Assembly (NCBI GenBank): GCA_025964455.1
Contig: JAOPYU010000075.1
Span: forward strand, 1 to 19,893
Length of the DNA: 19,893 nt
From: Thermoleophilia bacterium
Lineage (GTDB): Bacteria; Actinomycetota; Thermoleophilia; Gaiellales; SKUG01
Direction: 5' to 3'
Shown here piece by piece: positions 3,157-19,893 of the stretch (positions are counted from its first letter, which is position 1; the number at the start of each line of letters is the position of its first letter). Below the pieces are notes generated by a model, which worked only from the letters and a program-made list of their open reading frames with translations, was not told where the DNA came from and made no database searches. Made by a program: the position numbers and the translations under genes.

Positions 3157-3162
3157 GCCCGA

Positions 3163-3168
3163 ACCCTA
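3163..3168 (-). promoter_or_regulatory. Candidate -10 box for leaderless ugd transcript
   Basis: TAGGGT on the minus strand ends 6 bases before the ugd ATG (3156). This fits the TANNNT box seen before leaderless actinobacterial genes and would start the RNA at or beside the ATG. No clear -35 hexamer lies 17-18 bases upstream. An alternative reading is that its AGGG serves as a weak ribosome site. Confidence 0.45.
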
Positions 3169-3223
3169 CCCCGGGATCCGCGATTCGACCGTCCGTGGGC
3201 GTGCGCAGGGGCCGGGCGCCTGC

Positions 3224-5308: not shown

Positions 5309-5328
5309 CGGTTTTTGCAGATCGTCAA
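5300..5328 (-). promoter_or_regulatory. Possible promoter of the propeller/Ig gene (TTGACG ... TTCGAT)
   Basis: On the minus strand TTGACG (5328-5323) and TTCGAT (5305-5300) are separated by 17 bases. They sit in the 49-base gap after the LCP gene and run into the annotated start of the propeller gene. The -35 is good; the -10 is poor, lacking A at its second position. If real, the RNA would begin about at 5293, favouring the GTG there as a leaderless start. The local AT-rich stretch stands out from its surroundings. Confidence 0.3.
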
Positions 5329-5357
5329 TACAATCTGGCTACCGGATCGAACGAGAG

Positions 5358-7319
5358 CTACGTGAGCGGCTTCACGCCGTCGGCGATGGCGAGCATCGTC
5401 TCGTTCGTGAGCTTGTCGAGCACCGTGTTGGAGACCCAGTACGTCCCCGCACCCTGGCGCCAGGCGACCATGTGCAGCTTGGTGCCGTTGAAGTACAGCT
5501 GATACGTGCGACCGTCCGGGCGGCGGACCTCACGGGTCGCGCCTTCCAGGATCGGCGGGTTCGGCCAGCTCGTCGCCTGCACGCCGTAGTAGTCGAAGTC
5601 GCTGATCTTCGCGACGAGGCGGTAGGCGTCGTAGATGGTCTTGGTGCCACGCCCGATGCTGAACTGGTACTGGTGGACCTCCTGGAAGGTCGACCCCGTC
5701 GCGCGCACCGTCGGGTACATGATCGGCAGGCCCTTGGTCGTGACGTCGAGGAACTCCTCCCGACCGTAGTTCGCGTCGACCGTCACGTTCGCCGACGACT
5801 TGTCGGGCACCACGTTGCCCGAGTAGTCCTCGCCGCCGGTCGGGCCTTCGTCGGTGCCGACGGTCCCGTCGTTGGTCCCGGCCCCGCCCAGCTGGGTGCC
5901 GGTGCGCCCGACCACGACGAGCAGCTTGGTGGTGAAGGCGTTGGAGGCGTCCTTGGCCGCGACCGTCGCACCCTCGATGCGCGAGGCGAGCGCGTCCGCC
6001 GCGGGCTCGTCCGCCGGCGTCCCGTAGAACACCTTGGTGCTCGCGTAGGTCTGCGCGTCGGCGTTGGCCTGCGTTGGATCGACCCGGTACCCGGCCGTCG
6101 ACAGCTGCTGGGCCATGGTGCGCGCCACGCCGCTCGTGCCGGAGCCGTTGAGCACCTTCACCGTGACCGTCGAGGGCGCGGGAGCCACGGGCGCCGCCTC
6201 GTCCTCCGCCTCGGTCGCGTCGGGGGTCTCATCCGTTGCGGTCACGGGCCGCTTGCCGACCAGCTGGTCGGCCGACTTCTCCCGCGCGTCGGCGCTCGGG
6301 GCGAGGAACGCCTTGACCGCCGCATCCATCTTTGCCTGGTCGAAGACGACGATGCTGGCACCGTTGCTGGCCTCGCCCACCTCGCCGTCGTACTCGACCG
6401 TGAACACGTCCTTGGAGTCGAGCGCGAGCCCGAGCCGCAGGTAGTCGTAGAGCACGCGGACGTCGATGTCGTTGCCGCCGCCCGCCACGACCTCGGTGTT
6501 CTTGCGGAAGACACGGAACAGCCCCGGCACGTTCTTGGAGAGGCTCGACTTCGCGACCTGCTTCTTGAGCCCCGCGAGCACCAGCTGCTGGCGCGCGATG
6601 CGGTGGAAGTCCGTGTCGTTGTGGCGGTAGCGCGCGAAGTCGAGCGCGTCGCGCCCGCCGAGCAGCTGGTACCCCGGCTTGATGTCGATGTCGTCGTAGC
6701 CGGTGTTGGGCGGGTTGAAGTACGTGTGGTCGACGTCCACCCAGACGCCACCGAGCGTGTCCACGACGCCACGGAAGCCCGTGAAGTCGACGTTCATCAC
6801 CATGTTCACGTCGAGGCCGGTGATCGACTTGATCGTCTTGACCGACAGGGCAGGGCCACCGTCCGTGTACGCGTCGTTGATCTTCTTCTCGCCCTGGCCC
6901 GGGATCTCGACGTAGAGGTCGCGCGGGAACGACAGCATGCTGATCGTCTTGCGCTTCGGGTCGAGGCGCACGAGCAGCATCGTGTCGCTGCGCTGGGTCT
7001 TGTCCTCGACCGAGTACTTCCGCTGGTCGCTGCCGAGCAGCAGGATGTTGGTCGGCTTGCCCGGGAGCGGCTTGACGAGCTGGTCCTGCGCCGCCTGCAT
7101 CTGCGCCGTGCGCGGCGTGACGAGGTCCGCGATCTCGTGCTTGGCGTAGAAGAACGCCGCCGCGACGGCACCGAGCAGCACGGCGAGCGCGACGAGCAGC
7201 ACGAGGCCGAGCCGACGGAGCGCACTGCGCGTGCGGCTGCGCGGATCCGCAGCCTGCGGGGCCGAGACGTCGTCCTGTGCGAACACCGGGCGATCGCGTG
7301 TGGGGGGAAGAGGCGACAT
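5358..7319 (-). CDS. LytR-CpsA-Psr (LCP) family glycopolymer transferase with extra C-terminal domain
   Basis: LCP proteins move undecaprenyl-linked glycopolymers onto peptidoglycan on the outer membrane face. Counting from the ATG at 7319 (653 residues), a polar N-terminus leads to one membrane helix at about 37-58. The LCP domain at about 88-250 has NILLLGSDQR, RSDTMLLVRLDP (Arg110, Asp112), SFPRDL (Arg133, Asp134) and the DALDFARYRH segment near 224-233. A LytR_C-like domain at about 384-470 carries VKVLNGSGTSGVA. A further ~150 residues end in a W-containing stretch and an MLAIADGVKPL helix, which is not part of standard LCP proteins. A GTG at 7382 in the same frame would add 21 residues; neither start has a ribosome site. 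TATCGT at 7368-7363 could be a -10 box lying downstream of that GTG, so I prefer 7319. Confidence 0.88.
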   Translation of the reverse strand: MSPLPPTRDRPVFAQDDVSAPQAADPRSRTRSALRRLGLVLLVALAVLLGAVAAAFFYAKHEIADLVTPRTAQMQAAQDQLVKPLPGKPTNILLLGSDQRKYSVEDKTQRSDTMLLVRLDPKRKTISMLSFPRDLYVEIPGQGEKKINDAYTDGGPALSVKTIKSITGLDVNMVMNVDFTGFRGVVDTLGGVWVDVDHTYFNPPNTGYDDIDIKPGYQLLGGRDALDFARYRHNDTDFHRIARQQLVLAGLKKQVAKSSLSKNVPGLFRVFRKNTEVVAGGGNDIDVRVLYDYLRLGLALDSKDVFTVEYDGEVGEASNGASIVVFDQAKMDAAVKAFLAPSADAREKSADQLVGKRPVTATDETPDATEAEDEAAPVAPAPSTVTVKVLNGSGTSGVARTMAQQLSTAGYRVDPTQANADAQTYASTKVFYGTPADEPAADALASRIEGATVAAKDASNAFTTKLLVVVGRTGTQLGGAGTNDGTVGTDEGPTGGEDYSGNVVPDKSSANVTVDANYGREEFLDVTTKGLPIMYPTVRATGSTFQEVHQYQFSIGRGTKTIYDAYRLVAKISDFDYYGVQATSWPNPPILEGATREVRRPDGRTYQLYFNGTKLHMVAWRQGAGTYWVSNTVLDKLTNETMLAIADGVKPLT

Positions 7320-7385
7320 AAGGGGCGGAGCGGGACCGCCGTTCGGCGACGATCTACCGAAAACGATACCGCACCCGTCCACGAC

Positions 7386-7400
7386 GCCGCGTCGCGCGGC
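7386..7400 (-). terminator. Weak hairpin after the M20 peptidase gene
   Basis: GCCGCG-TCG-CGCGGC forms a 6-bp all-GC stem with a 3-base loop, starting 10 bases past the stop codon of the M20 gene. No U-tract follows. U-less hairpins are proposed terminators in actinobacteria, but a short GC stem is easily found by chance at this base composition. Confidence 0.25.
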
Positions 7401-7410
7401 TCAGGAACTG

Positions 7411-8640
7411 CTAGAGAAGCGAGCGGTGTTCGTCCGCGTTCTGCTCGTCGCGGGCGTACTCGTTCGGCACCCGACCGGCGAGCTGCTCGGCGTCGGCGGC
7501 CACCGAGTGGAGGAAGTCGAGCAGGGCGAGGCGATAAGCGCGCAGCGAGCGGATCGAGACCTTCTCCGCGGGCCCGTGGTGTCCGGAGCCGATCGGCCCG
7601 AACTCGACGCTGGGGATCCCCCGCTGGAGGAAGTAGGTGCCGTCGTTGGTGCCGTCGCGCCCCACGAGCTGGACGTCACCTTCGGCGTGGCCGCGGATCG
7701 CCTCGCGCAGGCGGATCAGGAAGGGGTCCTTGGTGTCGACCTTCGCCGGCGGGCGACGGAAGGTCTCGATCACGCGGCAGCCCGGCACGGCGAGTGACAT
7801 GAGCTCCTCGCGCACGCGCTCTACCGGCTGCTCCGGCAGGTAGCGGATGTCGACGTCGAGCACGCAGCGCTCCGGCACCTGGTTGATGCGATCCCCGCCG
7901 CTGATGCGGCCGAGGTTGATGGAGGGGCGATCGTAGAACCTCGAGCTCTCCTGCGCGAAGGGCAGCAGCTTGAGGCGGTCGAAGATGTCCATCGCGCGCT
8001 CGATCGCGTTCACGCCGAGCCACGGTGTGGCGCCGTGCGCGCCGCGCCCCTCCACTTCGATGCGCACGTCGAGCACGCCCTTGGCCTGGATCCCGACGTG
8101 CAGGTCGGTCGGCTCGCCGCACACGACGAAGTCGCCGACCAGGCCGCGGTTGACCGCAGCCTCGGTGCCGCGGATCTCCTTGGGCTTGTCGTCTTCCTCG
8201 TCCGGTACGCAGAGCAGGCGCACGCGGATCGGCAGCGGCGGATCGAGCGCGGCGAGGTCTGCCATGACGCAGAACATCGCGGCGGTCGCGCCCTTCATGT
8301 CGTACGCGCCGCGGCCCCAGAGGAACTCCGAGTCCACGTGCGGGATGAACTGCTCCTTCTTGCCCGGCACCACGTCGAGGTGGGCATGGAGCACCACGGT
8401 GACGGGGCCCTCGCCCACGGTCGCGTCGAGGATCGGCAGGCCGTCGAGGTCGAAGGTGCGCGCCCGCAGGTCGTGCCCCTCGAGCCACCCCAGCGCGAAG
8501 TCGGTGCAGGTTCGGATGCCGTCGTCGTGGGAGCTGTCGAAGCTGATCAGGCGCTGGGCGACCTGCAGTTCGTCGGCCGAGCATGGCGCGATGGCGCAGG
8601 CGTCGGTGGGCACGGCGAGCTGTTCTGGATGGAGCGTCAC
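7411..8640 (-). CDS. M20 family metallopeptidase (ArgE/DapE-like amidohydrolase)
   Basis: This cytosolic, probably di-zinc, enzyme removes an acyl or aminoacyl group from a small substrate. The 409-residue length fits the family. Expected metal and catalytic positions are visible: LHAHLDVV (His87, Asp89), GRGAYDMKG (Asp114), VPDEED (Glu148 catalytic, Glu149 ligand), CGEPTD (Glu176) and GSGHHGPAE (His355). The lid/dimerisation domain lies at about 190-300 with GRGAHGATPWLGVNAI. Substrate is not decided: acetylornithine, succinyl-diaminopimelate and peptides are all possible, and no arginine or lysine pathway genes are nearby. The start is a GTG without a ribosome site; TACGGT ends 9 bases upstream. 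The C-terminus after about 385 is polar and not conserved. It follows the protease gene with a 33-base gap. Confidence 0.88.
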   Translation of the reverse strand: MTLHPEQLAVPTDACAIAPCSADELQVAQRLISFDSSHDDGIRTCTDFALGWLEGHDLRARTFDLDGLPILDATVGEGPVTVVLHAHLDVVPGKKEQFIPHVDSEFLWGRGAYDMKGATAAMFCVMADLAALDPPLPIRVRLLCVPDEEDDKPKEIRGTEAAVNRGLVGDFVVCGEPTDLHVGIQAKGVLDVRIEVEGRGAHGATPWLGVNAIERAMDIFDRLKLLPFAQESSRFYDRPSINLGRISGGDRINQVPERCVLDVDIRYLPEQPVERVREELMSLAVPGCRVIETFRRPPAKVDTKDPFLIRLREAIRGHAEGDVQLVGRDGTNDGTYFLQRGIPSVEFGPIGSGHHGPAEKVSIRSLRAYRLALLDFLHSVAADAEQLAGRVPNEYARDEQNADEHRSLL

Positions 8641-8649
8641 GAGGGGTGA

Positions 8650-8655
8650 ACCGTA
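8650..8655 (-). promoter_or_regulatory. Candidate -10 box before the M20 gene
   Basis: GATACGGT on the minus strand contains TACGGT, a TANNNT box, ending 9 bases before the GTG start at 8640. It shares the GATA lead-in with the boxes before the isomerase and methyltransferase genes. The spacing is slightly longer and would give a leader of only a few bases. It lies between the protease stop and the M20 start. Confidence 0.3.
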
Positions 8656-8673
8656 TCCGATCGGCGGTGGGTG

Positions 8674-10674
8674 CTAGGCGACCGAGGCGCGGAAGCGCCG
8701 GACGATGGCGGTGCCGCCTGCGCGAACCCGCACCTCGACGGTCACGCGCTCGCCGATGCGCAGGCCACGGCTCAACCTCGCGTCGTAGGCGAACCAGCCG
8801 CGGCGTGGCGAGCCGGTGCCGCGCAGGTGCGAGGTGCGCGGGAGGGAGCGTCCGGAGTGGAGCACGCGCGTGCCGACGCGCACGATCACCTGCACGTTGG
8901 CGCTCGGCTCGGTGGCGGCGTAGCCGATGCGCAGGCGCGCCGATCGACCACCCGCGCGGACGGCGCCGCTCGTGACCCAGGCGCCGAGGCGCGGTGCGAT
9001 GCGATAGGTGCGGGGCGCACTCGTGACGAGCTGGCCCTCGCCGTTGCGCGCGACGACCTGCCAGCGGTAGGTCCCGCTGCGCCACGCACTGGTCGGATGT
9101 GCAAGCGCCCGTGCACCCGCGGCGACGGCGCGGTCGTGGCGTGCGCCACCACCTGTCAGCAGCACCTTGGCGGAGCTCCAGCCGGCCGGCAACGACCAGG
9201 CCAGCACCGGCGGTGCCCCGACGAGTCCGCCGGCACGAGGCGCGTCGAGGCGGGCGCCGTCGAGGCCGGGACCGCCACCCTCGGCGGCTCCGATCGCGAA
9301 CATGGCGGCGTTGGCGTTGAGGATGCCGCCGGAGACGGTGCGGCTCCGCAGCGAGCTGGTCGGCACGACGCTCGAGATGAGCCGGGCTCGCAGGTCGGCG
9401 GCCGTCGCCTCGGGGTGGGCTGCCGCGATGAGCGCGGCGGCGCCGGATGCGTAGGGCGCCGAGAACGAGGTCCCGGTGACGGTGCGGTAGGCATTGCCCG
9501 GCGCAGCGGTGAGGATGCCTTCGCCGGGCGCGGCGATGTCGACGCCGGTCGCTCCGTAGTTGGACCACGACGACCAGTTGCCGAGCCGCGAGCTGCTCGT
9601 CACCGACAGGATGCCGGGCAGCTCGTAGCCGGACGGAAAGTCGGGCGTCTCGGGCGCGTCGTTGTTCATGCCCTGGCCGGCGGAGTCGCCGTTGCCTGCG
9701 GCAGCGATGACGATCGTGCCCTTGGCGTTGGCGTAGGCGATGGCGTCGAGTTCGGCCTGGGAGAAGCAGGAGGTGGTGCCGCCGCAGCCGAGCGAGATGT
9801 TGATGACGTCGGCACCCTCGTCGGCCGCGTAGCGGATCGCTGCGAGGTAGCCGCTCATCGAGAAGCCGCCGGCAGAGTCGCGGAACACCTTGAGCGGCAT
9901 GATCCGCGCGTCGGGTGCGAGCCCGGCCATGCCGGCACCGCTCGCGGCGATGATGCTCGCCACCGCCGTGCCGTGGCCGACGCGGTCGACCTGGGCGCCA
10001 GTGCTCGAGCCCGAGAAGTCGCGCCCGGGCAGCACCCGACCTGCGAGGTCGGGATGGGATGCGTCGACGCCGGTGTCGATGACGGCCACCACCGCGCCGG
10101 CACCGGTGCCGACCTGCCACGACTCGGGGCCGTCGACGTCCTGGTCGCTCGACTGGGACAGCGCCCACTGGTCGCCGATGCGGGGTGCGCCGACCGGGCC
10201 GTTGCGCAGCTCGGTGCCGCCGACCGTGGACCCGATGCCGTCGTCGTGGGAGCCGGGCGCGTCGGCCGTGCCGGTTCGTGCGCCCGTCGCCGGGGCGGGA
10301 TCCTCGGGCGCGTCGGGGGTGTCGTAGGGAAGTCGCGGGAGCACCGGCTCCACCGCGGTCGCGCCGACGTCCGCGAAGGCGGCTTCGGCCTGACGCGCTG
10401 CGACCTCGTCGCCGAGGTCGACCTCGTGCCATCCCCCGGCGAGTTCGGCGCCGGCCTTGCCGCCGCCCAGGCGTCGCGCAGCGGTGTCGAGCTTGGCTGC
10501 CGAGGCCCCCTGCACGAGCCAGCGTTCGTGCGTGCCCTCGAACACGAGCCGGTCAGGGGCTGCCCCGCCTCGACCGCCGACGCCGGCAAGCTGCGCCACG
10601 GCTACTGCCATGCAGAGCAGCAGTCCGAGCGCGAGCACGGAGCGCGCGAGTCGACGACGCGGGGGGCGCAACAT
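8674..10674 (-). CDS. Secreted subtilisin-like serine protease (S8 family)
   Basis: This is an exported endopeptidase. Arg-rich residues 1-10 and a hydrophobic segment at 11-30 form a signal peptide or anchor. Residues 40-115 look like an inhibitor-type propeptide, followed by a Pro/Asp/Gly linker and a GDQWAL...W motif before the catalytic domain. The triad is intact: Asp200 (AVIDTGVD), His234 (GHGTAVASI) and Ser403 (GTSFSAPYASGAAAL), with oxyanion Asn328 (AAAGNGD). Cys297 and Cys303 could form a small disulfide. After about 430 there are roughly 230 residues of beta-rich sequence, including a fibronectin-like YRWQVVARNGEG segment near 535-550, and a final basic beta domain. The ATG at 10674 has no ribosome site or TANNNT box. 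It lies 47 bases downstream of the carboxylate-amine ligase gene. The substrate is unknown. Confidence 0.93.
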   Translation of the reverse strand: MLRPPRRRLARSVLALGLLLCMAVAVAQLAGVGGRGGAAPDRLVFEGTHERWLVQGASAAKLDTAARRLGGGKAGAELAGGWHEVDLGDEVAARQAEAAFADVGATAVEPVLPRLPYDTPDAPEDPAPATGARTGTADAPGSHDDGIGSTVGGTELRNGPVGAPRIGDQWALSQSSDQDVDGPESWQVGTGAGAVVAVIDTGVDASHPDLAGRVLPGRDFSGSSTGAQVDRVGHGTAVASIIAASGAGMAGLAPDARIMPLKVFRDSAGGFSMSGYLAAIRYAADEGADVINISLGCGGTTSCFSQAELDAIAYANAKGTIVIAAAGNGDSAGQGMNNDAPETPDFPSGYELPGILSVTSSSRLGNWSSWSNYGATGVDIAAPGEGILTAAPGNAYRTVTGTSFSAPYASGAAALIAAAHPEATAADLRARLISSVVPTSSLRSRTVSGGILNANAAMFAIGAAEGGGPGLDGARLDAPRAGGLVGAPPVLAWSLPAGWSSAKVLLTGGGARHDRAVAAGARALAHPTSAWRSGTYRWQVVARNGEGQLVTSAPRTYRIAPRLGAWVTSGAVRAGGRSARLRIGYAATEPSANVQVIVRVGTRVLHSGRSLPRTSHLRGTGSPRRGWFAYDARLSRGLRIGERVTVEVRVRAGGTAIVRRFRASVA

Positions 10675-10721
10675 GCACTGCGCATCGGCAGCGAGGCCTC
10701 TGCGCTTGAACCCGCTTCAGG

Positions 10722-11906
10722 TCAGTCCAGCTGGGCGGTGTCGTGCACGAGCTGGCGAGCAGCAGCGTGGGTCGACTTGCCACCGGCCAGCCAGGCCTCG
10801 AGCTGCCGGCTGGCACCGGTCCGATCAAGCATGCCGGCGACGCCGTCGAACCACTCCTTGGCACCGAGCCGGGTGGCGACGGATTCGGTCCGGTCGAGCA
10901 TCCGGGCGACCAGGTGCCGGGTCGGCACGAGGGTGTCGGTCTCGAAGTCCACCATCTCGCCATCGAGGCCGTGGCGAGCGGCGCTCCACCGGTTCTCCTC
11001 GATGAGCAGCTGCGGCACGAGTGGCGGCAGCGGCACGCCGGCGTCGAAACGGTCACCGTGCCATGCGACGAGCGCCTGGATGAGCGCGGCGAGCGCCGTG
11101 GTGTCGCGCAGGCGACTCTGTGCATCGCAGATGCGGATCTCGATGGTGCCGAAGTCGGGGTGCGGGCGCACGTCCCACCACACGTAGGTGTGGTCGGGGA
11201 TGAGGCCGGTGCGGGCGCCGCGGTCGAGCAGCGCCTGGTACTCGTCCCAGCCACCCGGCATCGCCGCGGGCATGCCGCTGCGCGGGAAGGCGTCGAACAC
11301 CTTGATCCGCGAGGACTGCAGGCCCGTGGTCGCGCCCTGCCAGAACGGCGAGTTGGCGCTCAGCGCGAGCAGCAGCGGCAGGTCGGTGCGGATGGCGTTG
11401 AAGACGTAGGCGCACTTGTCGGCGGAGTCGACTCCGACGTGCACGTGCATGCCGAAGATGAGCTCGCGCCGCGCAACCCACTGCAGCCGCGCGACGATGT
11501 CGCGGTAGCGCTGCTGGTCGGTGATGAGCTGGTCCTCCCAGCCCGAGACCGGCGTGGTACCGGCCGAGGCGACGACGGCACCTGCCTGCTCCGCGGCATC
11601 GAGCACCGTGCGGCGCAGTGCACGCAGGTCCTCGTGCGCGGTCGAGATGTCCTTGCACACGACGGTCGAGGTCTCCACGACGCTCTGCATGAGCTCGTGC
11701 TTGACCTGCGCGCCGCGCCCCTCGGGCAGCGTCGCGAGCAGGGCATCGACCACCGGCACGAGCTCCATCGTCTCGGGATCGAGGAGCTGGAACTCCTCCT
11801 CGACGCCGAGCGAGTACGCCGTCGAGGTACCGAATCCACGGATCCGGCGGGCCTGGGTGCTGGTGCTTGCGGCAGTTACGACCATGAAGTGACGGTTTCC
11901 CGCCAC
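10722..11906 (-). CDS. GCS2-type carboxylate-amine ligase (YbdK-like glutamate-cysteine ligase family)
   Basis: This ATP-dependent enzyme joins a carboxylate to an amine; several relatives make gamma-glutamylcysteine, though often weakly. Family landmarks in the 394 residues are SLGVEEEFQLLD at 32-43, HELMQSVVE at 70-78, FGMHVHVGVD at 151-160, ANSPFWQG at 184-191, RPHPDFGTIEIRICD at 247-261 and EENRWSAARHG at 303-313. Length matches YbdK/EgtA-type proteins (about 370-430). The listed start is a GTG with GGAG only three bases away; the ATG at 11885, seven codons downstream, is a good alternative without a ribosome site. It follows the homocysteine methyltransferase-like gene by 66 bases, which hints at a sulfur amino acid or thiol context. 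The true substrate cannot be read from sequence. Confidence 0.88.
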   Translation of the reverse strand: MAGNRHFMVVTAASTSTQARRIRGFGTSTAYSLGVEEEFQLLDPETMELVPVVDALLATLPEGRGAQVKHELMQSVVETSTVVCKDISTAHEDLRALRRTVLDAAEQAGAVVASAGTTPVSGWEDQLITDQQRYRDIVARLQWVARRELIFGMHVHVGVDSADKCAYVFNAIRTDLPLLLALSANSPFWQGATTGLQSSRIKVFDAFPRSGMPAAMPGGWDEYQALLDRGARTGLIPDHTYVWWDVRPHPDFGTIEIRICDAQSRLRDTTALAALIQALVAWHGDRFDAGVPLPPLVPQLLIEENRWSAARHGLDGEMVDFETDTLVPTRHLVARMLDRTESVATRLGAKEWFDGVAGMLDRTGASRQLEAWLAGGKSTHAAARQLVHDTAQLD

Positions 11907-11972
11907 CTACTCCGAGCAAACGCGACGCGGGGCCAATGGCATGGCCGTGGCGACCGATTCGCAGGGCGCATC

Positions 11973-12770
11973 TCAGGCCTCGGCGAGCGCCGCGATCGTC
12001 TCCGGGGTGGTGCCACAGCAGCCGCCGACCAGTGACACGGGAAGGTCGGCGACCAGCTCCATGGTCGCATCGCGCCAGTCCTGGGGCCGGGCAAGTGGCC
12101 ACGTCGTCGACTGGCCGGGCGCGCGATCGAACGGCACCCCGGCGCTCGGCATCACCCATGCTCGCTCGCGCAGCTCGCACAGCTCGCTGAGCAGGGGGCG
12201 CAGCCCGGTCGGCCCTTCGCAGCAGTTGAGGCCGACGTGCACCTCCTCCGGGGCGTCGGCCGCGAGCTCGAGCACCCAGCGCTGCGCGGCGGCGCCGACG
12301 CTCGGTGCGACGGAGCAGCCGAGGCGCACGTCGACGTCGCGGACACCGGCTGCGACCTCCGCCCACGCCGCCAGGAAGGCGTCGGCGATCGAGCGATCGG
12401 TGATCGTCTCCACCTGGATGCCCCTCGCCCCGTCGTCGAGCAGCAGCTCCAGGTCGCGCCAGTAGTCGCGCGGCTCGTCCGAGCCGGGGCCGATCGTCGC
12501 GGCCACGAGGATCTCGCCGCTCGACACCGTCGCGGCCGCCTCGCGCGCGCACGCGAGTGCAGCGAGCTGCAGCTGGGCGCGACGGCGCTCGCTCGAGCGC
12601 ATCCAGGCGAGGAATGCGTTGGTCTGGAGGGACGTCGCGCCAGCGTCCAGGTACGCGACGTGGGCGGCGATGACGACGGCGGGCTCGCGCAGGCACAGGT
12701 CATCCGCGGTCTCGTCGCCTCGCAGATGCCGCTCGAGCAGCGTTCCGTATGCCCCGTCGTGGATGCGCAT
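11973..12770 (-). CDS. Homocysteine S-methyltransferase family protein
   Basis: Members of this family transfer a methyl group to homocysteine (or a related thiol) using zinc held by three cysteines. The 265-residue protein has the family start DGAYGT at 5-10, GATSLQTNAF at 44-53, ATIGPG at 91-96, HVGLNCCEG at 178-186 (zinc ligand Cys183) and the paired cysteines in GGCCGTTPETI (Cys251, Cys252). It is slightly shorter than typical members (about 300). The ATG at 12770 is chosen over an upstream in-frame start at 12917 because family similarity begins exactly there and TAGCGT ends 7 bases before it. The longer version would also run through the divergent gene. The methyl donor (S-methylmethionine, SAM, betaine or other) is unknown, and no cobalamin domain is attached. 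Confidence 0.87.
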   Translation of the reverse strand: MRIHDGAYGTLLERHLRGDETADDLCLREPAVVIAAHVAYLDAGATSLQTNAFLAWMRSSERRRAQLQLAALACAREAAATVSSGEILVAATIGPGSDEPRDYWRDLELLLDDGARGIQVETITDRSIADAFLAAWAEVAAGVRDVDVRLGCSVAPSVGAAAQRWVLELAADAPEEVHVGLNCCEGPTGLRPLLSELCELRERAWVMPSAGVPFDRAPGQSTTWPLARPQDWRDATMELVADLPVSLVGGCCGTTPETIAALAEA

Positions 12771-12777
12771 CGCCGTG

Positions 12778-12783
12778 ACGCTA
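12778..12783 (-). promoter_or_regulatory. Candidate -10 box for leaderless methyltransferase transcript
   Basis: GATAGCGT on the minus strand contains TAGCGT, a TANNNT box, ending 7 bases before the ATG at 12770. It lies in the 40-base divergent gap shared with the swivel-protein gene. On the plus strand TAGGGC (12799-12804) sits 6 bases before that gene's ATG (12811), a near-match lacking the final T. The two promoters would overlap, so their firing may be linked. Confidence 0.45.
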
Positions 12784-12810
12784 TCGGGTCGCGATGGGTA
12801 GGGCAGGGCG

Positions 12811-14367
12811 ATGCCGAGATCAGACACGCCGGTCAGGACGCCACGCTGGAGCCACGAAGTCGTCGAGGAGACGCTCGACGGGGCACGCCTGCTCACGGTG
12901 AGCGTGGTGGATCGCACGATCCATGGCTGGTGGGATCAGCTGGCACGCGACTGCCGCATCCCGGCGCGGCGCTGGCGACGGTGGTGGCCCCACGGGACTG
13001 GCCCGGTGGTGGCGATGATCGAGGGCCGTCCAGCCTTCGACGAGGCAGCATGGACCCAGTTCGCCTCGCTTGTGCCGGGCGCCGTGGTCCTGCGGCGCCG
13101 GACCGCCGAGGCCTTCGGCATCGCGCCCGGTGAGCTCGCGCCTCCGGGGAGGGGCCCGGGGCGGCTGGCCGACCTGGTCGATGCCAGACGTCGCCGCGGC
13201 CACCTGCGGCGGAGCGAGCGCCGGCTGGAAACGGATCTCGCGACGATGCGCGCGCGCCTCGACGCCCAGCTGGACGCCGCGCTCGCCGACGGCGACGACG
13301 GGACACCCGTGGCGTCCTTGCCGGCGTACGCACTGGCGGCCCGGATTGCAGCGCTGGTCGCGACGGGCGATCTCTGGGCTCCGGCGGGGATCGTCGATGT
13401 CGCGGGTGGCGAGGCGACCGCGACGCTCATGCGCCTGCTCGTCGCGGCCGGGCGCAGTCCGGGGGCGGCACTGCTCGACGCAGCGCAGCTCAGTGCGGGC
13501 GGCGGCCGCGCAGTTGATCCGTCCATGGACGCGCTCGCCGCCCTCGCCGAACTGTCACGCGATGCTCGGCGCGATGCGCTCGCCGAGCTGCTCGCGGGGC
13601 GCGTCGGGTGGCGCGCATGGCGAGACCTGCTCCTGGAGGCCCCGCCCCTGCGTGACGATCCCGATGCGGTCCTGTCATCCGTCGACGCGCTCGCCGCGGC
13701 TCGGGATCGACCGCCGATCGACCCACTCCCCCTCGACGACCTCGCACCGCCCCTGCGTGACGCGGCGCAGCGCGCGCGTCGACTGACATCGCTGCGCGAA
13801 CAGGTCACGCGTGACCGCGCCGAGCTGCACGCCGGCATCCGAGCGTTGGCGACGCACCTCGCCGAACGCCTCGTACAGGCCGGTTCACTTCCCGATGTGG
13901 ACGCCGCCTTCGACCTGCACCTCGACGACCTGCTCGCGCTCGCTCGTGGCACGACGACTCCGTCAGCGACGCGGCTGCAGCCGGGAAGCTCCACGCGAGG
14001 ATCGTCCGCGGACCAGCTCCCTGCGCGTGGCCTCGACGGCGTCCTGCGCGGCATTCCCGCCAGCACCGGGGTCGCGACCGGACCGTCCTGCGTGCTGGAC
14101 GAGCCCACGCTCGATGCACCACTCGATGGCGCCATCCTGGTCTGCCGCGTGACCGACCCCGCCTGGATGCCGCTTCTGGCGCGCTGCGCGGGGCTCGTGA
14201 CCGAGCGGGGCGGCCCGCTCTCGCACGCGGCGATCGTCGCACGCGAGCTGGGTATCCCCGCCGTGGTCGGGGTCGCCGGCGCCCGCAGCGCCCTTCGCGA
14301 CTGCCTGAGCGTCACCGTCGATGGCGGTGCCGGCACGGTGTCGCGAGCCCCTGACGGGTCCCCCTAG
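12811..14367 (+). CDS. Stand-alone PEP-utilising enzyme swivel-domain protein (RPH/PEP-synthase C-terminal half)
   Basis: In pyruvate phosphate dikinase, PEP synthase and rifampin phosphotransferase, a swivelling domain carries phosphate on a histidine between an ATP-grasp domain and a substrate domain. Here the 518-residue protein ends with that swivel domain (about 410-512): GIPASTGVATGP, TDPAWMPLL, and TERGGPLSHAAIVARELGIP with the phospho-accepting His472. Before it, residues 315-392 form the usual Arg-rich helices ending in LHLDDLLALARG. The first ~310 residues are helical and Ala/Arg-rich and may match the substrate-binding middle of the rifampin enzyme, but no substrate site is evident. 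No ATP-grasp sequence is present here or elsewhere in the window, so it needs a partner, has lost activity, or is regulatory. The start follows a GGGCAGGGCG stretch. It is the first gene of a plus-strand group. Confidence 0.82.
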   Translation: MPRSDTPVRTPRWSHEVVEETLDGARLLTVSVVDRTIHGWWDQLARDCRIPARRWRRWWPHGTGPVVAMIEGRPAFDEAAWTQFASLVPGAVVLRRRTAEAFGIAPGELAPPGRGPGRLADLVDARRRRGHLRRSERRLETDLATMRARLDAQLDAALADGDDGTPVASLPAYALAARIAALVATGDLWAPAGIVDVAGGEATATLMRLLVAAGRSPGAALLDAAQLSAGGGRAVDPSMDALAALAELSRDARRDALAELLAGRVGWRAWRDLLLEAPPLRDDPDAVLSSVDALAAARDRPPIDPLPLDDLAPPLRDAAQRARRLTSLREQVTRDRAELHAGIRALATHLAERLVQAGSLPDVDAAFDLHLDDLLALARGTTTPSATRLQPGSSTRGSSADQLPARGLDGVLRGIPASTGVATGPSCVLDEPTLDAPLDGAILVCRVTDPAWMPLLARCAGLVTERGGPLSHAAIVARELGIPAVVGVAGARSALRDCLSVTVDGGAGTVSRAPDGSP

Positions 14368-14974: not shown

Positions 14975-15475
14975 ATGTCGCACCGGATGGACGTCTCCGC
15001 AACCTCGCCCGCGCTCCTGCTCGCCGTCGCATGCGCGACGATCGGTACCGTGCTGCTGCTGCATGCGCGGGTGCAGTCACGGCTGCTGCGCGCCCGCATC
15101 GCGACCGGTGCGGGTACGATCGTCATGGATCCGATGACGGGCCTGTTCTCGGCCGATGCCGCGTGGCAGTGCGTTCGGGCCGAGGCGAGCCGCGCGGCAC
15201 GCCTCGCGCGACCGCTCGATGTGTGGGTCGGCATCGCCCCCGACTCCGCGACGCTCGACGTGGCGGGTCGCGAGGTGCTGTTCGGCCTGCCGCCGGGCGC
15301 CATCGGTGTCCGCGTGGCACCGGACTGCGTGTGCGTGGTCACCTGTGCGGACCAGGGCGCCGTCCCCGAACACCTAAGCGATGAGCTGACCTGGACCACG
15401 CGACGCGTGCCGCTCGGCGAGGACGCTGCACTCGAGGCGTTCTCGATCGTCTCGGAGGTGCGCGATGCTGCCTGA
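14975..15475 (+). CDS. Membrane-anchored degenerate GGDEF-like protein (first of a pair)
   Basis: The protein has 166 residues. One membrane helix (about 12-30) is followed by MDPMTGLFSADAA at 51-63, which matches the D-P-L-T-G-L-x-N-R opening of diguanylate cyclase domains. An A-R-x-R-rich helix comes next. At 112-121 VRVAPDCVCV aligns with the RLGGDEFAVL region, so the GGDEF signature is replaced by APDCV. The domain is also shortened between these points, lacking the usual LDxFKxxND metal and substrate segment. Cyclase activity is therefore not expected; a c-di-GMP-independent structural or sensing role is likely. The start may be the ATG at 14975 or 14987; no strong ribosome site decides it. 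Its last 11 bases overlap the next gene. Assignment rests on pattern resemblance and should be treated as moderate. Confidence 0.6.
   Translation: MSHRMDVSATSPALLLAVACATIGTVLLLHARVQSRLLRARIATGAGTIVMDPMTGLFSADAAWQCVRAEASRAARLARPLDVWVGIAPDSATLDVAGREVLFGLPPGAIGVRVAPDCVCVVTCADQGAVPEHLSDELTWTTRRVPLGEDAALEAFSIVSEVRDAA
15454..15460 (+). promoter_or_regulatory. Ribosome binding site for the second GGDEF-like gene
   Basis: GGAGGTG sits 4 bases before the ATG at 15465, inside the 3' end of the preceding gene. It supports this start and translational coupling of the pair. Confidence 0.7.
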
Positions 15476-16052
15476 TCCCGCACTGGTCGCGCTCGGCGTC
15501 GCAGGCGGCGGCCTGCTCGCTGCCGGCCTCGTCGCACAGTTGCGCACGCACCGCGTGCGGCGACGATGGGCGGAAGTCGGACTCGGCCTCGAGGAGCGCG
15601 CGACGGGGCTCGCCTCGCTGACCGCGATTCCCGTCCTGTTCCCTGCCGAGCTCGACACGGCCCGAGCCACGGGGACCACGCTGGCGGTGCTGGTGATGCG
15701 CCGGTTCGGCGAACACCCGGAAGGATTCGGCCGGCGACTCGCCCAGGCCACCCGTGCCCACGAGACCGGCTGGCGGATCGACTACGACCTGTTCGCCGTG
15801 ACCATCGTGGTCGCCGACCGCGACGAGGCCGTGCTGGCCGCGGCGCGCCTCGGCCGTGCAGCCTGCGGCAACGAGCCTGCGGGCGACCTGCGCATCGGGA
15901 TCGCGACCTGCCCCGCCGACGCCGACGACATGTTCGATGCGATCGACGTCGCGATGCGGCGGATGCGCGGCTTCGGGATCGTCGACGCCGTCGCCAGCCG
16001 CCTCCGCGAGCTGGACGAGGGCCCCTCGCTCGCCGCCATCGAGGCCGTCTGA
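15465..16052 (+). CDS. Membrane-anchored degenerate GGDEF-like protein (second of a pair)
   Basis: The protein has 195 residues. A helix at about 6-26 anchors the N-terminus. ATGLASLTAIPVLFPAEL at 46-63 occupies the place of the LTGLxNRRxFxxxL opening. WRIDYDLFAVTIV at 103-115 aligns with the RLGGDEFAVLL strand, so GGDEF has become DYDLF. Downstream, LRIGIATCPADADD at 142-155 matches the SIGVAxxPxDG strand, and DAIDVAMRRMR at 158-168 matches the ADxALYxAK helix. The fold is thus kept more fully than in its upstream neighbour, but the catalytic loop is lost, as is the residue set for metal binding. No RxxD inhibitory site is obvious. The start is fixed by GGAGGTG four bases upstream. It overlaps the upstream gene by 11 bases and is the last gene of the plus-strand group. 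Confidence 0.68.
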   Translation: MLPDPALVALGVAGGGLLAAGLVAQLRTHRVRRRWAEVGLGLEERATGLASLTAIPVLFPAELDTARATGTTLAVLVMRRFGEHPEGFGRRLAQATRAHETGWRIDYDLFAVTIVVADRDEAVLAAARLGRAACGNEPAGDLRIGIATCPADADDMFDAIDVAMRRMRGFGIVDAVASRLRELDEGPSLAAIEAV

Positions 16053-16121: not shown

Positions 16122-17078
16122 TCAGCCACCCATGTAGAGGATGCGTCGCACCTCGAAGCGCGTGGCGCGCCAGACGAGACGTGCATTCACGAGCAGCCAC
16201 GCGACCCCGAGTAGCGGCAGCAGCGGCACCGGCGCATCGAGCAGCACCGCGGCACAGAGCACCGCGCCCAGCGCGGCGGCGGTCCGCCCGAGCGGCAGCC
16301 ACAGCAGGTGCGCGAGCCCGAGCAGCAGCCCGAGCGCGACCACGTCGACCATGCCGATCAGCCACGTCGACCCTGCGGCCGGCAGGTGCAGGACGAGCAG
16401 GTCGAGCCGCGTCAGCAGGTCCGGATCGATGGTGAGCAGTGGGGCGACGCTGGCGTCTGGTGCCCCGCCGGTCCCGCCGCCGTCGAGCAGGTCGTGCGTG
16501 ACACCGCGCTCGACGCTGTGCAGGTCCGAGACGCCGGCTGCGAGCAGCATCGGCATGAGCCACACGGCGCGTCGCACCGCGCGTGCGGCCGCGATGCCGA
16601 GGAGCGCCGCTCCCGGGGCGCTCGCGAGGGCGCCGGCGACGACATCACCTCGTGAGACGAGCAGCCCCCCGAGCGCGAGCAGCATGGCCGCGGCCCCCAG
16701 GAGCGGCAGTGCGCTGATGCGGGCGAGGGGCGCGAGCGCGGCGCACATCACGACGAGTGCGACGAGGACCGGTCCGACCAGCAGCGCATCACCGGCAGCG
16801 CCGGTGGTGGCGTCGAGCACGACGCTGCGCCACGACTCGGACGACGCGAGCCCGACCATCCCGACGAAGGCGGCGACGCCCGGGACGATCCGGCGCACGA
16901 GCACCGGCCACCGTGGCCCGTGGCGATCGGCGTCCACGAACAGCGCATCGAGGTCGCGCGCCAGCTCGCCAGCTGCACGGGCGCGCGCATCGATGCGGGG
17001 AGTGCCCTCCCCGGAGCGAGGGGCGCCGGACGTGCCAGCCAGCGGTGCGTGCTGCGACATCTCCCGAGTGTTCGGCAT
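16122..17078 (-). CDS. Multi-pass membrane protein, possible GxGD (presenilin-like) aspartyl protease relative
   Basis: The 318-residue protein has a soluble N-terminus (1-60) and about eight hydrophobic segments near 64-79, 98-118, 121-141, 146-165, 169-187, 237-258, 264-280 and 283-300. Asp185 lies at the end of one helix (AAGVSDLHSVERGVTHDLL). Asp245 lies within another (LIGMVDVVALGLLLGL), 60 residues on, after a Gly-rich loop. The final helix begins VPLLPLLGVAW. This order resembles the YD, GxGD and PAL elements of presenilin and signal-peptide-peptidase enzymes, but two motifs are imperfect (SD and GMVD). I name it only as a candidate; a transporter or simple membrane protein is possible. 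The ATG at 17078 is preceded by GAGGGGA, better than the upstream starts, which would run into the divergent lipoprotein gene 46 bases away. Confidence 0.75.
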   Translation of the reverse strand: MPNTREMSQHAPLAGTSGAPRSGEGTPRIDARARAAGELARDLDALFVDADRHGPRWPVLVRRIVPGVAAFVGMVGLASSESWRSVVLDATTGAAGDALLVGPVLVALVVMCAALAPLARISALPLLGAAAMLLALGGLLVSRGDVVAGALASAPGAALLGIAAARAVRRAVWLMPMLLAAGVSDLHSVERGVTHDLLDGGGTGGAPDASVAPLLTIDPDLLTRLDLLVLHLPAAGSTWLIGMVDVVALGLLLGLAHLLWLPLGRTAAALGAVLCAAVLLDAPVPLLPLLGVAWLLVNARLVWRATRFEVRRILYMGG

Positions 17079-17124
17079 CGCGGTCCCCTCGCTTGACCCT
17101 TCCCCCGGATGCAAAGCTGTCCGC

Positions 17125-17967
17125 ATGCGCTCGCCGCTCGCCATCGTGTCCATCCTCGTCGCCGCAACCGTCGTCGCCGTCGCGTGCGGCGGCGATCGGG
17201 AAGCGCCCCGACGCCCGGACGCGCCAGCACCGGAGCGCGATCGCGCAACGGGCACGGCGAGCACGCGAACAGCGAAGGACACCTGCGGCGCACCGCCCGG
17301 GACGGCACTGCTCGGCGCGACGGTCCCGCTCGACCGTGCGCGTCGGGCCATCGACGCTGCGGCAGCTGCCCGCACCGGGGCGGGCTCGCGGTTCCACCTC
17401 CAGCTCGCGGTCGACATCGCGCGGCTGCCGACGGCGACTGCGACGCTCTCGGGTCGCCGTCTGGCGGACAACTCGAGCACGGCTACCATCGACTGGGAGG
17501 GCGTCGCCGGCGCACTGCTCCCGACCGGCGAGCTGCGCATCGTCGACGACGTGCTCCTGCTGCGCCGCACGTCGGCGCAGCCATGGCGACGACTGGGCAG
17601 CGCGTCGGGTGTCTCGCTCGACGTGGGCCGCGAGTTGCTCGACCATCCGTTCCTGCTCCGAACCGTGCGCGCGCGACGCTCGGGCTCCACGACCGTGCTC
17701 GCGCTCGATGCGCCCGTCGAGCGGCTGCGTGCCTATGCCACGAGCGAGCGGGCCGGACCCGTCACCGACCTGCTCGCACGCGCGCGCTCGCTGCGCATCG
17801 TGGTGCGCGTCACGCGCGGCCAGCTGGTCGGTGATCGCTTCACCCTCGTGGCCCGGATCCCGCCCTCGATGGGCGGGCGCCTCGCCAATCGACCCGTGAC
17901 GATCCGCGGCGCGACCGGCTACTGCGCCCTTCGGCCCGTCGACCGCAGCGTGATCACCGCGTCCTGA
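17125..17967 (+). CDS. Putative lipoprotein, unknown function
   Basis: The 280-residue protein begins with a lipoprotein signal: hydrophobic 4-20, then VAVAC with lipid-accepting Cys21, followed by GGD. Residues 24-50 are a Pro/Ala/Arg/Thr linker. From about 65 to 275 it alternates short helices and beta strands (ATATLSGRR, ATIDWEGVAG, GELRIVDDVLLLRR, FTLVARIPP), loosely like the half-barrel fold of LppX/LprG or LolA-type lipoproteins; that comparison is a guess from strand pattern. Cys54 and Cys267 could pair. The ATG at 17125 is chosen because the signal peptide starts there; no good ribosome site is seen. It is divergent from the membrane protein gene, and its last 14 bases overlap the convergent hydrolase gene. 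Confidence 0.78.
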   Translation: MRSPLAIVSILVAATVVAVACGGDREAPRRPDAPAPERDRATGTASTRTAKDTCGAPPGTALLGATVPLDRARRAIDAAAAARTGAGSRFHLQLAVDIARLPTATATLSGRRLADNSSTATIDWEGVAGALLPTGELRIVDDVLLLRRTSAQPWRRLGSASGVSLDVGRELLDHPFLLRTVRARRSGSTTVLALDAPVERLRAYATSERAGPVTDLLARARSLRIVVRVTRGQLVGDRFTLVARIPPSMGGRLANRPVTIRGATGYCALRPVDRSVITAS

Positions 17968-18658
17968 CGCGCTCGTCGTCAGCCGTCAGCCGCGCGATCT
18001 CCGGGAGCATCACTCGCGTGTACGCGCGCGCACGCGGGAGCGTCACGATCCGGTCGTTCCACCGCACCGCGAGCCCGTGCAGCCCGCCCGGGATCCCCAC
18101 CCACTCGGCGTCGGCGCCCACCGCCGCCGCACGCTCGACCGCGCGACGCGACGCACGCAGGGATGTGCCGGGCACCAGCGGCAGGCGGTTGTCGAGCGAG
18201 CCGTGCACGACGAGCAGCCGCCGCCGACCGATCGCCTCGATCGGGATCTGGTCGGGAAACCACGGCGCCATCGCCACGAACCCGACGATGTCGTCGCCCG
18301 CGAGGTTCGCCGCACACGTCGCGCCACCCATCGACAGCGCCACGAGCACGATGCGTCTCGGGGGCACCTCGCGATTCCGCTCATGGGCGAGCGCCGCAGC
18401 GACGTCCGCGATGCCAAGGTCGAGGCGGTTCCAGGAGGTGTTGGCGTAGCGCACCTGCACCACGCGCACGTTCGAGCCAACGGCCCGCCGCACCTTCGGG
18501 GCGAGCCACGTCATGCTCGTGCTCCACCGCCCGGGGACGGGCGCCGCGGTCCCGCCACCCACCAGCAGCACGGTCGCGTCGGCGGCCTCCGGCCCATTGG
18601 TGCGCAGCTCACCGCCGGAGGGCAGCGCGATCGTGTCGTCCCAGGTGAAGTCGTGCAT
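17954..18658 (-). CDS. Small alpha/beta-hydrolase (dienelactone-hydrolase-like)
   Basis: This is a cytosolic hydrolase of unknown substrate, 234 residues from the ATG at 18658. The fold order is visible: strand VLLVGGGT near 30-37 with the oxyanion region, strand VRVVQVRYANTSW, and the nucleophile elbow VALSMGGATC with Ser109 (the first Gly of GxSxG is Ala). Asp156 follows in VVHGSLDNRLPL and His194 in GGLHGLAV, so the triad is complete. The GSxDxxxP and GxxH elements resemble dienelactone hydrolase and KANL3/Tex30-type small hydrolases. I prefer 18658 to a GTG three codons upstream because TACTGT ends 7 bases before this ATG and overlaps that GTG. No signal peptide is seen. Its 3' end overlaps the lipoprotein gene by 14 bases. 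Confidence 0.82.
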   Translation of the reverse strand: MHDFTWDDTIALPSGGELRTNGPEAADATVLLVGGGTAAPVPGRWSTSMTWLAPKVRRAVGSNVRVVQVRYANTSWNRLDLGIADVAAALAHERNREVPPRRIVLVALSMGGATCAANLAGDDIVGFVAMAPWFPDQIPIEAIGRRRLLVVHGSLDNRLPLVPGTSLRASRRAVERAAAVGADAEWVGIPGGLHGLAVRWNDRIVTLPRARAYTRVMLPEIARLTADDERVRTR

Positions 18659-18665
18659 GTTCGTC

Positions 18666-18671
18666 ACAGTA
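18666..18671 (-). promoter_or_regulatory. Candidate -10 box for leaderless hydrolase transcript
   Basis: TACTGT on the minus strand fits TANNNT and ends 7 bases before the ATG at 18658. Together with the hairpin just upstream it suggests an independent transcription unit for the hydrolase. The same bases include the alternative GTG start, which argues against using that GTG. Confidence 0.4.
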
Positions 18672-18733: not shown

Positions 18734-19699
18734 TCAGCGGTCGGGCGTCCACCGAGGCGCTGCCTTCGGCGTGCGGATCAGCACCACGCGGAGCTGGCTG
18801 CGGACCATCGAGCCGTTCTTGGTGCTCTTCAGGTACGCCTGGTAGGTGAAGCGCTTCACCCGGAGTCGTCGCTCCGCGGCAGTCAGCTTCCAGACCGTGC
18901 CCACGGCGCCACCGGTACCGACGCGCGCCACCTTCAGGTACCGGGTACCCGCGGCGCTCGTCACCTTGATGTAGCTGCGCGAGGTGTCGACCGTCCCGAC
19001 GTGCGAGGCGTTGATCCTGAACGCGTAGGTCGCGAGCTTGGACGAGGCGATCTTGGTCACCCGCACGCCGCTGTTGACGAGCGCCGCCGCGCCGAGGTTC
19101 AGCTGCGATCCGTCGTCGAGCGCGGTGCCGACCACCTGCTTGGAGACGTCCTGGACGGTGTTGGCCTTGCCTTCGGGGTCGATGGCGAAGCTGCGGATCC
19201 CGCTCTTGACCTCGCCCTTCCCGTCGGCGGTCGAGGAGACCACCTGCCAGTAGTAGACCGTGCCGGGCTCGAGTGCGAGCAGCACGTCGCCGCCGTACTG
19301 GTCCGCGCCGGTCGCCCAGCGGTTGCAGCCCCAGTGGTACGCGCCCTGGTCCATCGCCCAGACGAACTGGCGGCAGTAGCGCACGGTCGTCTTCATCGCC
19401 GGATCGGTGGCGAGCAGCACCCACTTGGGCGTCTCCTGCTTGCCGGCCGCATCCTTGCTCGGGTCGAGCTGCACCATGGGCGCGCGCTCGAGGTCGTCGA
19501 AGTGGTGGCCGTCTGCGGGCACGACGAGCTTCGCGCCGACGGCGGGCGTCGTCGCCGGAGTCGCCGCGGTCGTCGCCGGCACCGCATCGGCGGCGTGGGC
19601 GTTGGGCGCCAGCGCCAGGGCGAGCCCCAGCAACATGACCGCCGTTGCGATCCGCCGCATGCCTGCCGCGTTCGATCGAATCACCGCACCGTGATCCAT
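18734..19699 (-). CDS. Secreted fibronectin-III-like protein, unknown function
   Basis: This is an exported protein of 321 residues. The basic N-terminus, hydrophobic 17-31 and NAHA|AD give a signal peptide cleaved near 36/37. An Ala/Thr/Pro linker (38-54) follows. Residues about 55-175 look like a fibronectin-type III or Ig sandwich: LVVPADG...F, VLLATDP, and LEPGTVYYWQVVSSTADG near 143-160 is the typical loop-strand of such domains. Cys109 and Cys125 could pair. The rest (180-321) is beta-rich and basic, with repeats such as SYIKVTSAAGTRYLKVARV, and I do not recognise it. The start at 19699 is set by GGGAGGAA five bases upstream (19704-19711); a longer in-frame start at 19882 would bury the signal peptide. 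A cell-surface or matrix role is inferred only from architecture. Confidence 0.8.
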   Translation of the reverse strand: MDHGAVIRSNAAGMRRIATAVMLLGLALALAPNAHAADAVPATTAATPATTPAVGAKLVVPADGHHFDDLERAPMVQLDPSKDAAGKQETPKWVLLATDPAMKTTVRYCRQFVWAMDQGAYHWGCNRWATGADQYGGDVLLALEPGTVYYWQVVSSTADGKGEVKSGIRSFAIDPEGKANTVQDVSKQVVGTALDDGSQLNLGAAALVNSGVRVTKIASSKLATYAFRINASHVGTVDTSRSYIKVTSAAGTRYLKVARVGTGGAVGTVWKLTAAERRLRVKRFTYQAYLKSTKNGSMVRSQLRVVLIRTPKAAPRWTPDR

Positions 19700-19703
19700 G
19701 GTC

Positions 19704-19711
19704 TTCCTCCC
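19704..19711 (-). promoter_or_regulatory. Ribosome binding site of the fibronectin-like protein gene
   Basis: GGGAGGAA on the minus strand ends 4-5 bases before the ATG at 19699 and decides that start. No TANNNT box lies near this start, in contrast to the leaderless-type genes. Confidence 0.75.
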
Positions 19712-19841
19712 AGGTTCCGCATGCTCGCCTCCGCTCCCTCCCATGGGACGGTCGACGGTCATGTCCACCCGTACATCGCGCTGGCCGCCTCCGGTGTTGC
19801 AGCGAATGTCGCCAGGTCCTCGGATTCTGTTCCGATGGGGC

Positions 19842-19876
19842 CGCCCCGTGGCCGCCTCTCGGCGCCCCGTGGCCGC
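19842..19876. repeat. Short direct repeat CGCCCCGTGGCCGC, two copies
   Basis: The 14-base sequence CGCCCCGTGGCCGC occurs at 19842-19855 and again at 19863-19876, a 21-base period, two helical turns. It lies in the 194-base non-coding stretch upstream of the fibronectin-like gene (19700-19893), where I see nothing else firm. It could be an operator pair or chance in GC-rich DNA. Confidence 0.4.
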
Positions 19877-19893
19877 ACTCACCAGCTCGGATG

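Follow-up and report, generated by a model that had tools for sequence, protein, structure and literature searches.

The 19,893-nucleotide stretch of DNA analysed here (the window; contig JAOPYU010000075.1 of a Thermoleophilia bacterium) carries on its minus strand a gene for a membrane protein that is best explained as a bacterial di-aspartyl intramembrane protease with the presenilin/signal peptide peptidase (SPP) fold, a reading that we consider probable. Presenilin is an enzyme linked to Alzheimer's disease that cleaves proteins within the membrane. Sequence comparison and predicted models make it very likely that the protein is a homologue with the presenilin fold and an intact aspartate pair, and it is probably an active intramembrane protease; these grades of confidence, like those that follow, are judgements and were not computed. 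The analysis covered homology, fold prediction, motif conservation, neighbourhood and fusion, and it is from these that we infer catalysis, topology, regulation and substrate class.

The original prediction, made from the sequence alone, had placed Asp185 and Asp245 60 residues apart with a PLL segment after them, and translation of the minus-strand open reading frame (ORF) bears this out. Asp185 lies within GVSDLHSV, Asp245 lies within IGMVDVVALG, and the last long helix begins with PVPLLPLLG. Neither Pfam nor NCBIfam gave a family match for the 318-residue protein at E ≤ 10. Relatives, here called class I, were sought in 5.8 billion proteins, with 7,996 candidates scored. The single-query search found 44 at E ≤ 1e-3, and a second protein search, with alignment A2, reached 50 proteins, all of the same family. 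The relatives with a source name are each called 'hypothetical protein', and those named by NCBI come from Thermoleophilia bacteria. The class I set contains 52 proteins, the query and some fragments included, and the class I alignment contains 45 rows with the query. The second methionine of the query (residue 7, base 17060) is the start of most homologue rows displayed in this alignment. D185, D245, S184, S188, G242, P285, L287 and P288 are invariant in the 45 rows. Across the set, D185, D245, G242 and P288 are present in 52/52 proteins and P285 in 51/52. In the homologue check proposed with the prediction, the aspartates are invariant and the PLL/PAL-like segment is nearly so. Strong class I matches occur in 4 genomes. 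At E ≤ 0.1 the class I profile matched 54/399 genomes of the class, and most of the other genome matches are weak and cover the C-terminal half. A scan of genome contigs with the single sequence gave 80 stretches, none of them confirmed, and a scan with the class I alignment gave four loci.

A second branch was found among more distant sequences. Local search recovered 26 distant frames from loci L009-L035, and 21 of these were aligned as A3 and are called class II. The other five, from L009, L010, L012 and L019 (two frames), were incomplete and were set aside; the local search yielded no frame from L023 or L034. The A3 rows share the pattern D-xx-SV-x-GPT, then LGxxD, then a PALP-like segment. 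A single comparison of the class I and class II profiles gave a probability of 97.7 and E = 2.5e-12. The joint alignment A4 (39 rows; 18 of the 52 class I proteins and the 21 class II) has D185, S188, V189, G192, T194, G242, D245, P288 and L290 as invariant residues, and the two aspartates are its only invariant acidic columns. A protein search with A3 gave 407 proteins at E ≤ 1. Counts for class II rest on 120 of the 407, which are not independent because many are close to one query row; both aspartates, G242 and P288 are present in 120/120. The spacing between the aspartates is 57-64 residues in class I and 45 in 118/120 of the listed class II proteins, values that are lower bounds. The A3 profile matches 155/399 genomes of the class at E ≤ 1e-3 and, at E ≤ 0.01, 31/396 genomes drawn from the phylum, three of them weakly (E above 1e-3) and probably as noise. 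Ten class II or related frames gave no Pfam or NCBIfam family above cut-off; NrsF (E = 0.0015) is an example of the weak matches. A 44-row tree separates class I, class II and a third group of fused proteins described below. No order of descent is claimed, because the class II branch is weakly supported (81/64), the class I and fused branches are long and the joins may be false. The contig-end fragment L010 (G348:C108:1-408) matches class I at E = 2.4e-15, contains GDLWSSLAGPT and STWVVGVVD and perhaps belongs to a group that lies between the two classes. Of 56 loci that contain a class II gene, 52 have a uracil-DNA-glycosylase (UDG)-superfamily gene beside it on the same strand (57 loci were counted through, some of them repeats of the same gene). 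At L039:7331-8654 such a gene (PF03167, E = 8.9e-11) lies a few bases from the class II gene.

The sequence link to presenilin and SPP is carried by class II and the joint profile. Against the PDB at E ≤ 10, the A3 profile matched only presenilin-1 (E = 8.5e-5) and presenilin-2 (E = 7.7e-4). The A4 profile matched nine sequences, all of them presenilin-1/2 or SPPL2a, with presenilin-1 best (E = 1.1e-4) and SPPL2a at E = 5.7. A single-pass alignment of A4 with full-length presenilin-1 pairs the first Asp with that of VYDLVAV, the G-p after it with GP in KGP, the second Asp with that of GLGD, and PxLP with PALP. On the presenilin-1 fragment A4 scored 26.9 bits, compared with -8.0 for the reversed fragment and at most -0.5 for 60 column-shuffled profiles, and A3 scored 21.7 against a shuffle maximum of 3.6. 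A phmmer search with the single presenilin-1 fragment found neither SPPL2a nor the archaeal homologue PSH at E ≤ 10, and the joint bacterial profile therefore has a longer reach than presenilin-1 itself. Pfam scans of the 39 A4 members matched Presenilin (PF01080) in 4/39, all below cut-off (best 21.1 vs 34.3 bits), along with DUF4267 in two members and SDF in one. The archaeal SPP family PF06550 matched 0/4 genomes of the class at E ≤ 10, and its controls matched 4/14 named genomes, 2 over the cut-off.

Predicted structures point the same way. Our reading of the AlphaFold secondary structure of the class I protein gives eight membrane helices, the count made in the original prediction, plus a non-membrane N-terminal helix (residues 28-52); the class II model also has eight helices by our reading. 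D185 is inside helix 174-191 and D245 is near the start of helix 243-258. In structural comparisons the presenilin family fills the top 19 rows for the predicted class I model and the top 24 rows for the predicted class II model, each well above the next row. The separate models of both branches match presenilin and SPPL2a above the other folds compared, superimposing on SPPL2a at 3.4 Å over 183 residues (class I) and 3.1 Å over 187 (class II). In the comparison with archaeal PSH proposed at the outset, the class II model also matches PSH above the other folds compared; the 50 rows of the class I list do not include PSH. Together with the class II and joint-profile matches to presenilin-1/2 and SPPL2a, the models of both branches support the predicted status of a distant presenilin/SPP-like member.

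Charge distribution leans toward an SPP-type orientation, with both termini cytoplasmic and the Asp-Asp loop outside, although the pattern is not clean. Mean counts of lysine plus arginine in class I (41 rows, model helix limits) are 2.3 at the N-terminus, 1.9, 1.8, 0.4 and 2.0 in the next loops, 2.5 in the long Asp-Asp loop, then 1.1 and 0.0, and 2.0 at the C-terminus. Mean acidic counts are 2.9 at the N-terminus, 1.7 in loop 1 and 5.6 in the Asp-Asp loop. In class II (38 rows) basic residues are highest in loop 6 (2.8) and the C-terminus (2.8) and low in loops 3 and 7 (0.1 and 0.2); the near absence of basic residues from loop 2 (0.03) blurs the pattern. The available text of PMC7768045 describes SPP and SPPL as inverted relative to presenilin, which may explain their opposite substrate orientation.

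The proteins share a core of features with known members of the family and depart from them in others. Two aspartates, predicted to lie on neighbouring late transmembrane helices, are conserved in 52/52 class I and 120/120 listed class II proteins. The PAL segment reads PALP in 119/120 listed class II proteins and P-V/L/M-L-P in 51/52 class I proteins, keeping P, L and P but not A. Presenilin-1/2 (MEROPS A22) and the bacterial proteins have in common the predicted fold, the order first Asp, second Asp, PxLP, the first Gly of GxGD, the GP after the first Asp (class II) and a predicted TM6a-like helix and hairpin before the second-Asp helix; the bacterial proteins differ in lacking the YD motif and the second Gly and in their eight helices, short loop and predicted inverted orientation. 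SPPL2a, one of the signal peptide peptidase-like proteases (Pfam PF04258), shares the model superposition and the predicted inverted active-site orientation but differs in its weak sequence similarity; the bacterial N-terminus is predicted to be inside, with one helix fewer. Archaeal PSH/MCMJR1 differs in keeping both YD and GxGD. In the available text of PMC2947513, D162 and D220 of PSH are essential and G219A slows cleavage. Human GxGD proteases have nine helices and YD, GxGD and PAL motifs in the part of PMC7768045 consulted.

Several results weigh against the protease reading. The weak points named in the original prediction are real: SD replaces YD, GMVD replaces GxGD, and there are eight helices. 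The residue before the first Asp is Ser in 52/52 class I and Val in 120/120 listed class II proteins (V, T or A in the 21 A3 rows). The first Gly and the Asp of GxGD are present in 172/172 proteins, but the second Gly is replaced by V (50) or I (2) in class I and by S (119) or P (1) in listed class II. Both predicted models have eight helices, not nine. The class I profile found no presenilin in the PDB, its one match being a chance-level RNase P subunit (E = 1.8), and the A2 profile scored -4.1 on the presenilin-1 fragment, under its best shuffle (2.1). The SDF match of one A4 member (E = 5.2e-5) is better than the best Presenilin E-value, and Foldseek E-values for the models are weak. D226, H231, W239 and H257, among many others, are also invariant in the class I alignment, and class I conservation by itself therefore cannot single out the two aspartates. 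The departures in YD, GxGD and helix number indicate a divergent sister branch and not a strict GxGD member, and this branch most likely works like the GxGD proteases.

The genes next to the presenilin-like gene encode candidate partners. Neighbourhood was counted over four class I loci. Two genes, GG-A and GG-B, are convergent to the presenilin-like gene in 4/4 loci, at ≤0.3 kb in three and ~1.7 kb in L002. At E ≤ 1 the GG-B profile matched nine PDB entries, every one a GGDEF/diguanylate cyclase (best 7.1e-5), and PF00990 matched 3/9 GG-B members (best E = 0.0018). GG-A is weaker, with GGDEF entries making up 5/7 of its PDB matches (best E = 0.016) and aldolase the other two. Compared with diguanylate cyclases, GG-A shares a DPxTGL-type start, but GG-A and GG-B differ by a replaced GGDEF signature: the intact signature of an active cyclase is replaced in 9 GG-B and 7 GG-A rows (by eye). 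Over 171 residues GG-B shares 34% identity with the N-terminal portion of a 568-aa protein of genome G001 (pairwise E = 3e-12; genome-wide E = 1.2e-10), and the joint presenilin-like profile matches residues 326-543 of its 576-residue stop-to-stop frame at E = 1e-25. Genome G003 has the same GGDEF-presenilin-like architecture in a 548-residue frame, and in G002 the two halves sit unjoined at contig ends. The locus examined in G004 has a GG-B-like frame but no presenilin-like match, and a further weak match lies on contig C341. Hydropathy reveals extra hydrophobic stretches between the two domains of the L073 fusion. Searching with GG-B also turned up another GGDEF-like frame, assigned to GG-A by its position, ahead of the fusion in G001 and ahead of the counterpart in G002; G003 yielded no such frame. 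The split and fused copies thus place the trio twice in G001, once split and once fused. At the class II loci inspected the GGDEF link was not found.

In the proposed mechanism, Asp185 and Asp245, on two helices flanking an active-site loop, would form the catalytic pair, and the PxLP start of the last helix would take the role of PAL. The predicted hairpin before Asp245 may be the pairing place for the substrate strand. Helices that span the membrane once and have their N-terminus inside, such as signal peptides and type II anchors, would be the likeliest substrates, because of the predicted SPP-type orientation and the SPP/SPPL inversion noted above (PMC7768045). The nearby membrane-anchored degenerate GGDEF proteins would most likely regulate the protease, a role suggested by neighbourhood and fusion that we propose only tentatively.

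The foremost alternative keeps an active protease but makes the GGDEF-like membrane proteins substrates released by single-helix cleavage and not regulators. Both GG proteins of the window carry a single hydrophobic helix at the N-terminus, and such proteins lie near the gene in 4/4 loci. The fusions in G001 and G003 are more usual for a regulator, and the apparent N-out/C-in orientation of the GG proteins (by eye) is presenilin-type while the charges of the enzyme lean SPP-type, which leaves this alternative unlikely. A presenilin-fold protein without proteolysis, acting as a membrane receptor or scaffold for GGDEF-like partners, is less likely still. It would account for the replacement of the YD Tyr and the second GxGD Gly in the 172 proteins counted and for partner domains that are themselves degenerate, but a dead enzyme is expected to lose one aspartate, and both aspartates and the L-P of the PxLP core are present in 172/172 (52 class I, 120 listed class II). 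An unrelated polytopic protein whose two conserved aspartates are presenilin-like by chance would fit the lack of a significant sequence match from class I alone and the many other invariant class I residues; it is very improbable given joint-profile PDB matches confined to presenilin and SPPL2a, the shuffle and reversal controls, and presenilin-family chains in the top rows for two separately built models. A prepilin-peptidase-type (A24) GxGD aspartyl protease, A24 being also a prokaryotic membrane di-aspartyl family with GxGD (PMC2947513), is scarcely credible and was rejected on helix order, since the A24 aspartates described in the available text of that paper are in soluble regions with several helices between them, whereas here they are on neighbouring helices with PxLP, and no A24 match is listed in the Pfam scans of the protein and the A4 members.

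Under the protease reading, Thermoleophilia may hold a large, largely unannotated presenilin/SPP-type branch with a relaxed xD...GxxD...PxLP site, in which at least one lineage would be tied by neighbourhood and fusion to membrane GGDEF-type sensors. This bacterial nucleotide-controlled counterpart of SPP is a possibility that we rate just short of even. The open-licence papers searched describe the family in eukaryotes and archaea and gave no description of a bacterial presenilin-like protease; the phrase 'Bacterial presenilin homologue' in the available text of PMC8396450 probably means archaeal PSH. A bacterial branch would bear on the place of origin of the family and would show whether the YD Tyr and the second GxGD Gly are needed for a working active site. 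The small eight-helix proteins would serve as models for presenilin chemistry, and the GGDEF link, if true, would be a new control of intramembrane proteolysis.

Table 1. Positions of the presenilin-like gene, its motifs and neighbours in the window, and of the fusions at two other loci.
Feature	Position	Strand	Remarks
Class I presenilin-like gene	16122..17078	(-)	318 aa plus stop by translation; likely start 17060
Asp185 codon, first putative catalytic Asp, SDxxSV	16524..16526	(-)	Aligned to presenilin-1 D257
Asp245 codon, second putative catalytic Asp, GxVD	16344..16346	(-)	Aligned to Asp of presenilin-1 GLGD
Predicted beta-hairpin, residues 229-242, directly before second-Asp helix	16353..16394	(-)	AlphaFold secondary structure; cf. 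available text of PMC7248309
P-L-L-P, residues 285-288, counterpart of PAL segment	16215..16226	(-)	Alignment
GG-A	14975..15475	(+)	One N-terminal hydrophobic helix and degenerate GGDEF-like domain
GG-B	15465..16052	(+)	One N-terminal hydrophobic helix and degenerate GGDEF-like domain; homologous to N-terminal part of GGDEF-presenilin-like fusion
Lipoprotein-like gene, divergently transcribed	17125..17967	(+)	Neighbour in 4/4 class I loci; no Pfam match
Alpha/beta hydrolase (PF12697)	17954..18667	(-)	Neighbour in 3/4 class I loci
382-aa protein	18734-19882	(-)	Kept in 4/4 class I loci; no convincing Pfam match
518-aa protein	12811-14367	(+)	Sole Pfam match at E ≤ 0.001 is C-terminal PEP-utiliser mobile domain PF00391, residues 439-508
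Minus-strand gene row	1795-12917	(-)	Pfam matches: UDP-glucose/GDP-mannose dehydrogenase, NHL-repeat protein, LytR-CpsA-Psr protein, M20 peptidase, subtilase, GCS2 ligase, homocysteine S-methyltransferase
GGDEF-presenilin-like fusion	L073:6144-7847	(-)	
GGDEF-presenilin-like fusion	L086:1375-3018	(+)	

A 608-aa plus-strand ORF (16141-17967) runs antisense over the presenilin-like gene and continues 3' as the adjoining lipoprotein-like gene. The signal peptide encoded by the lipoprotein-like gene is a conceivable substrate of the presenilin-like protein.
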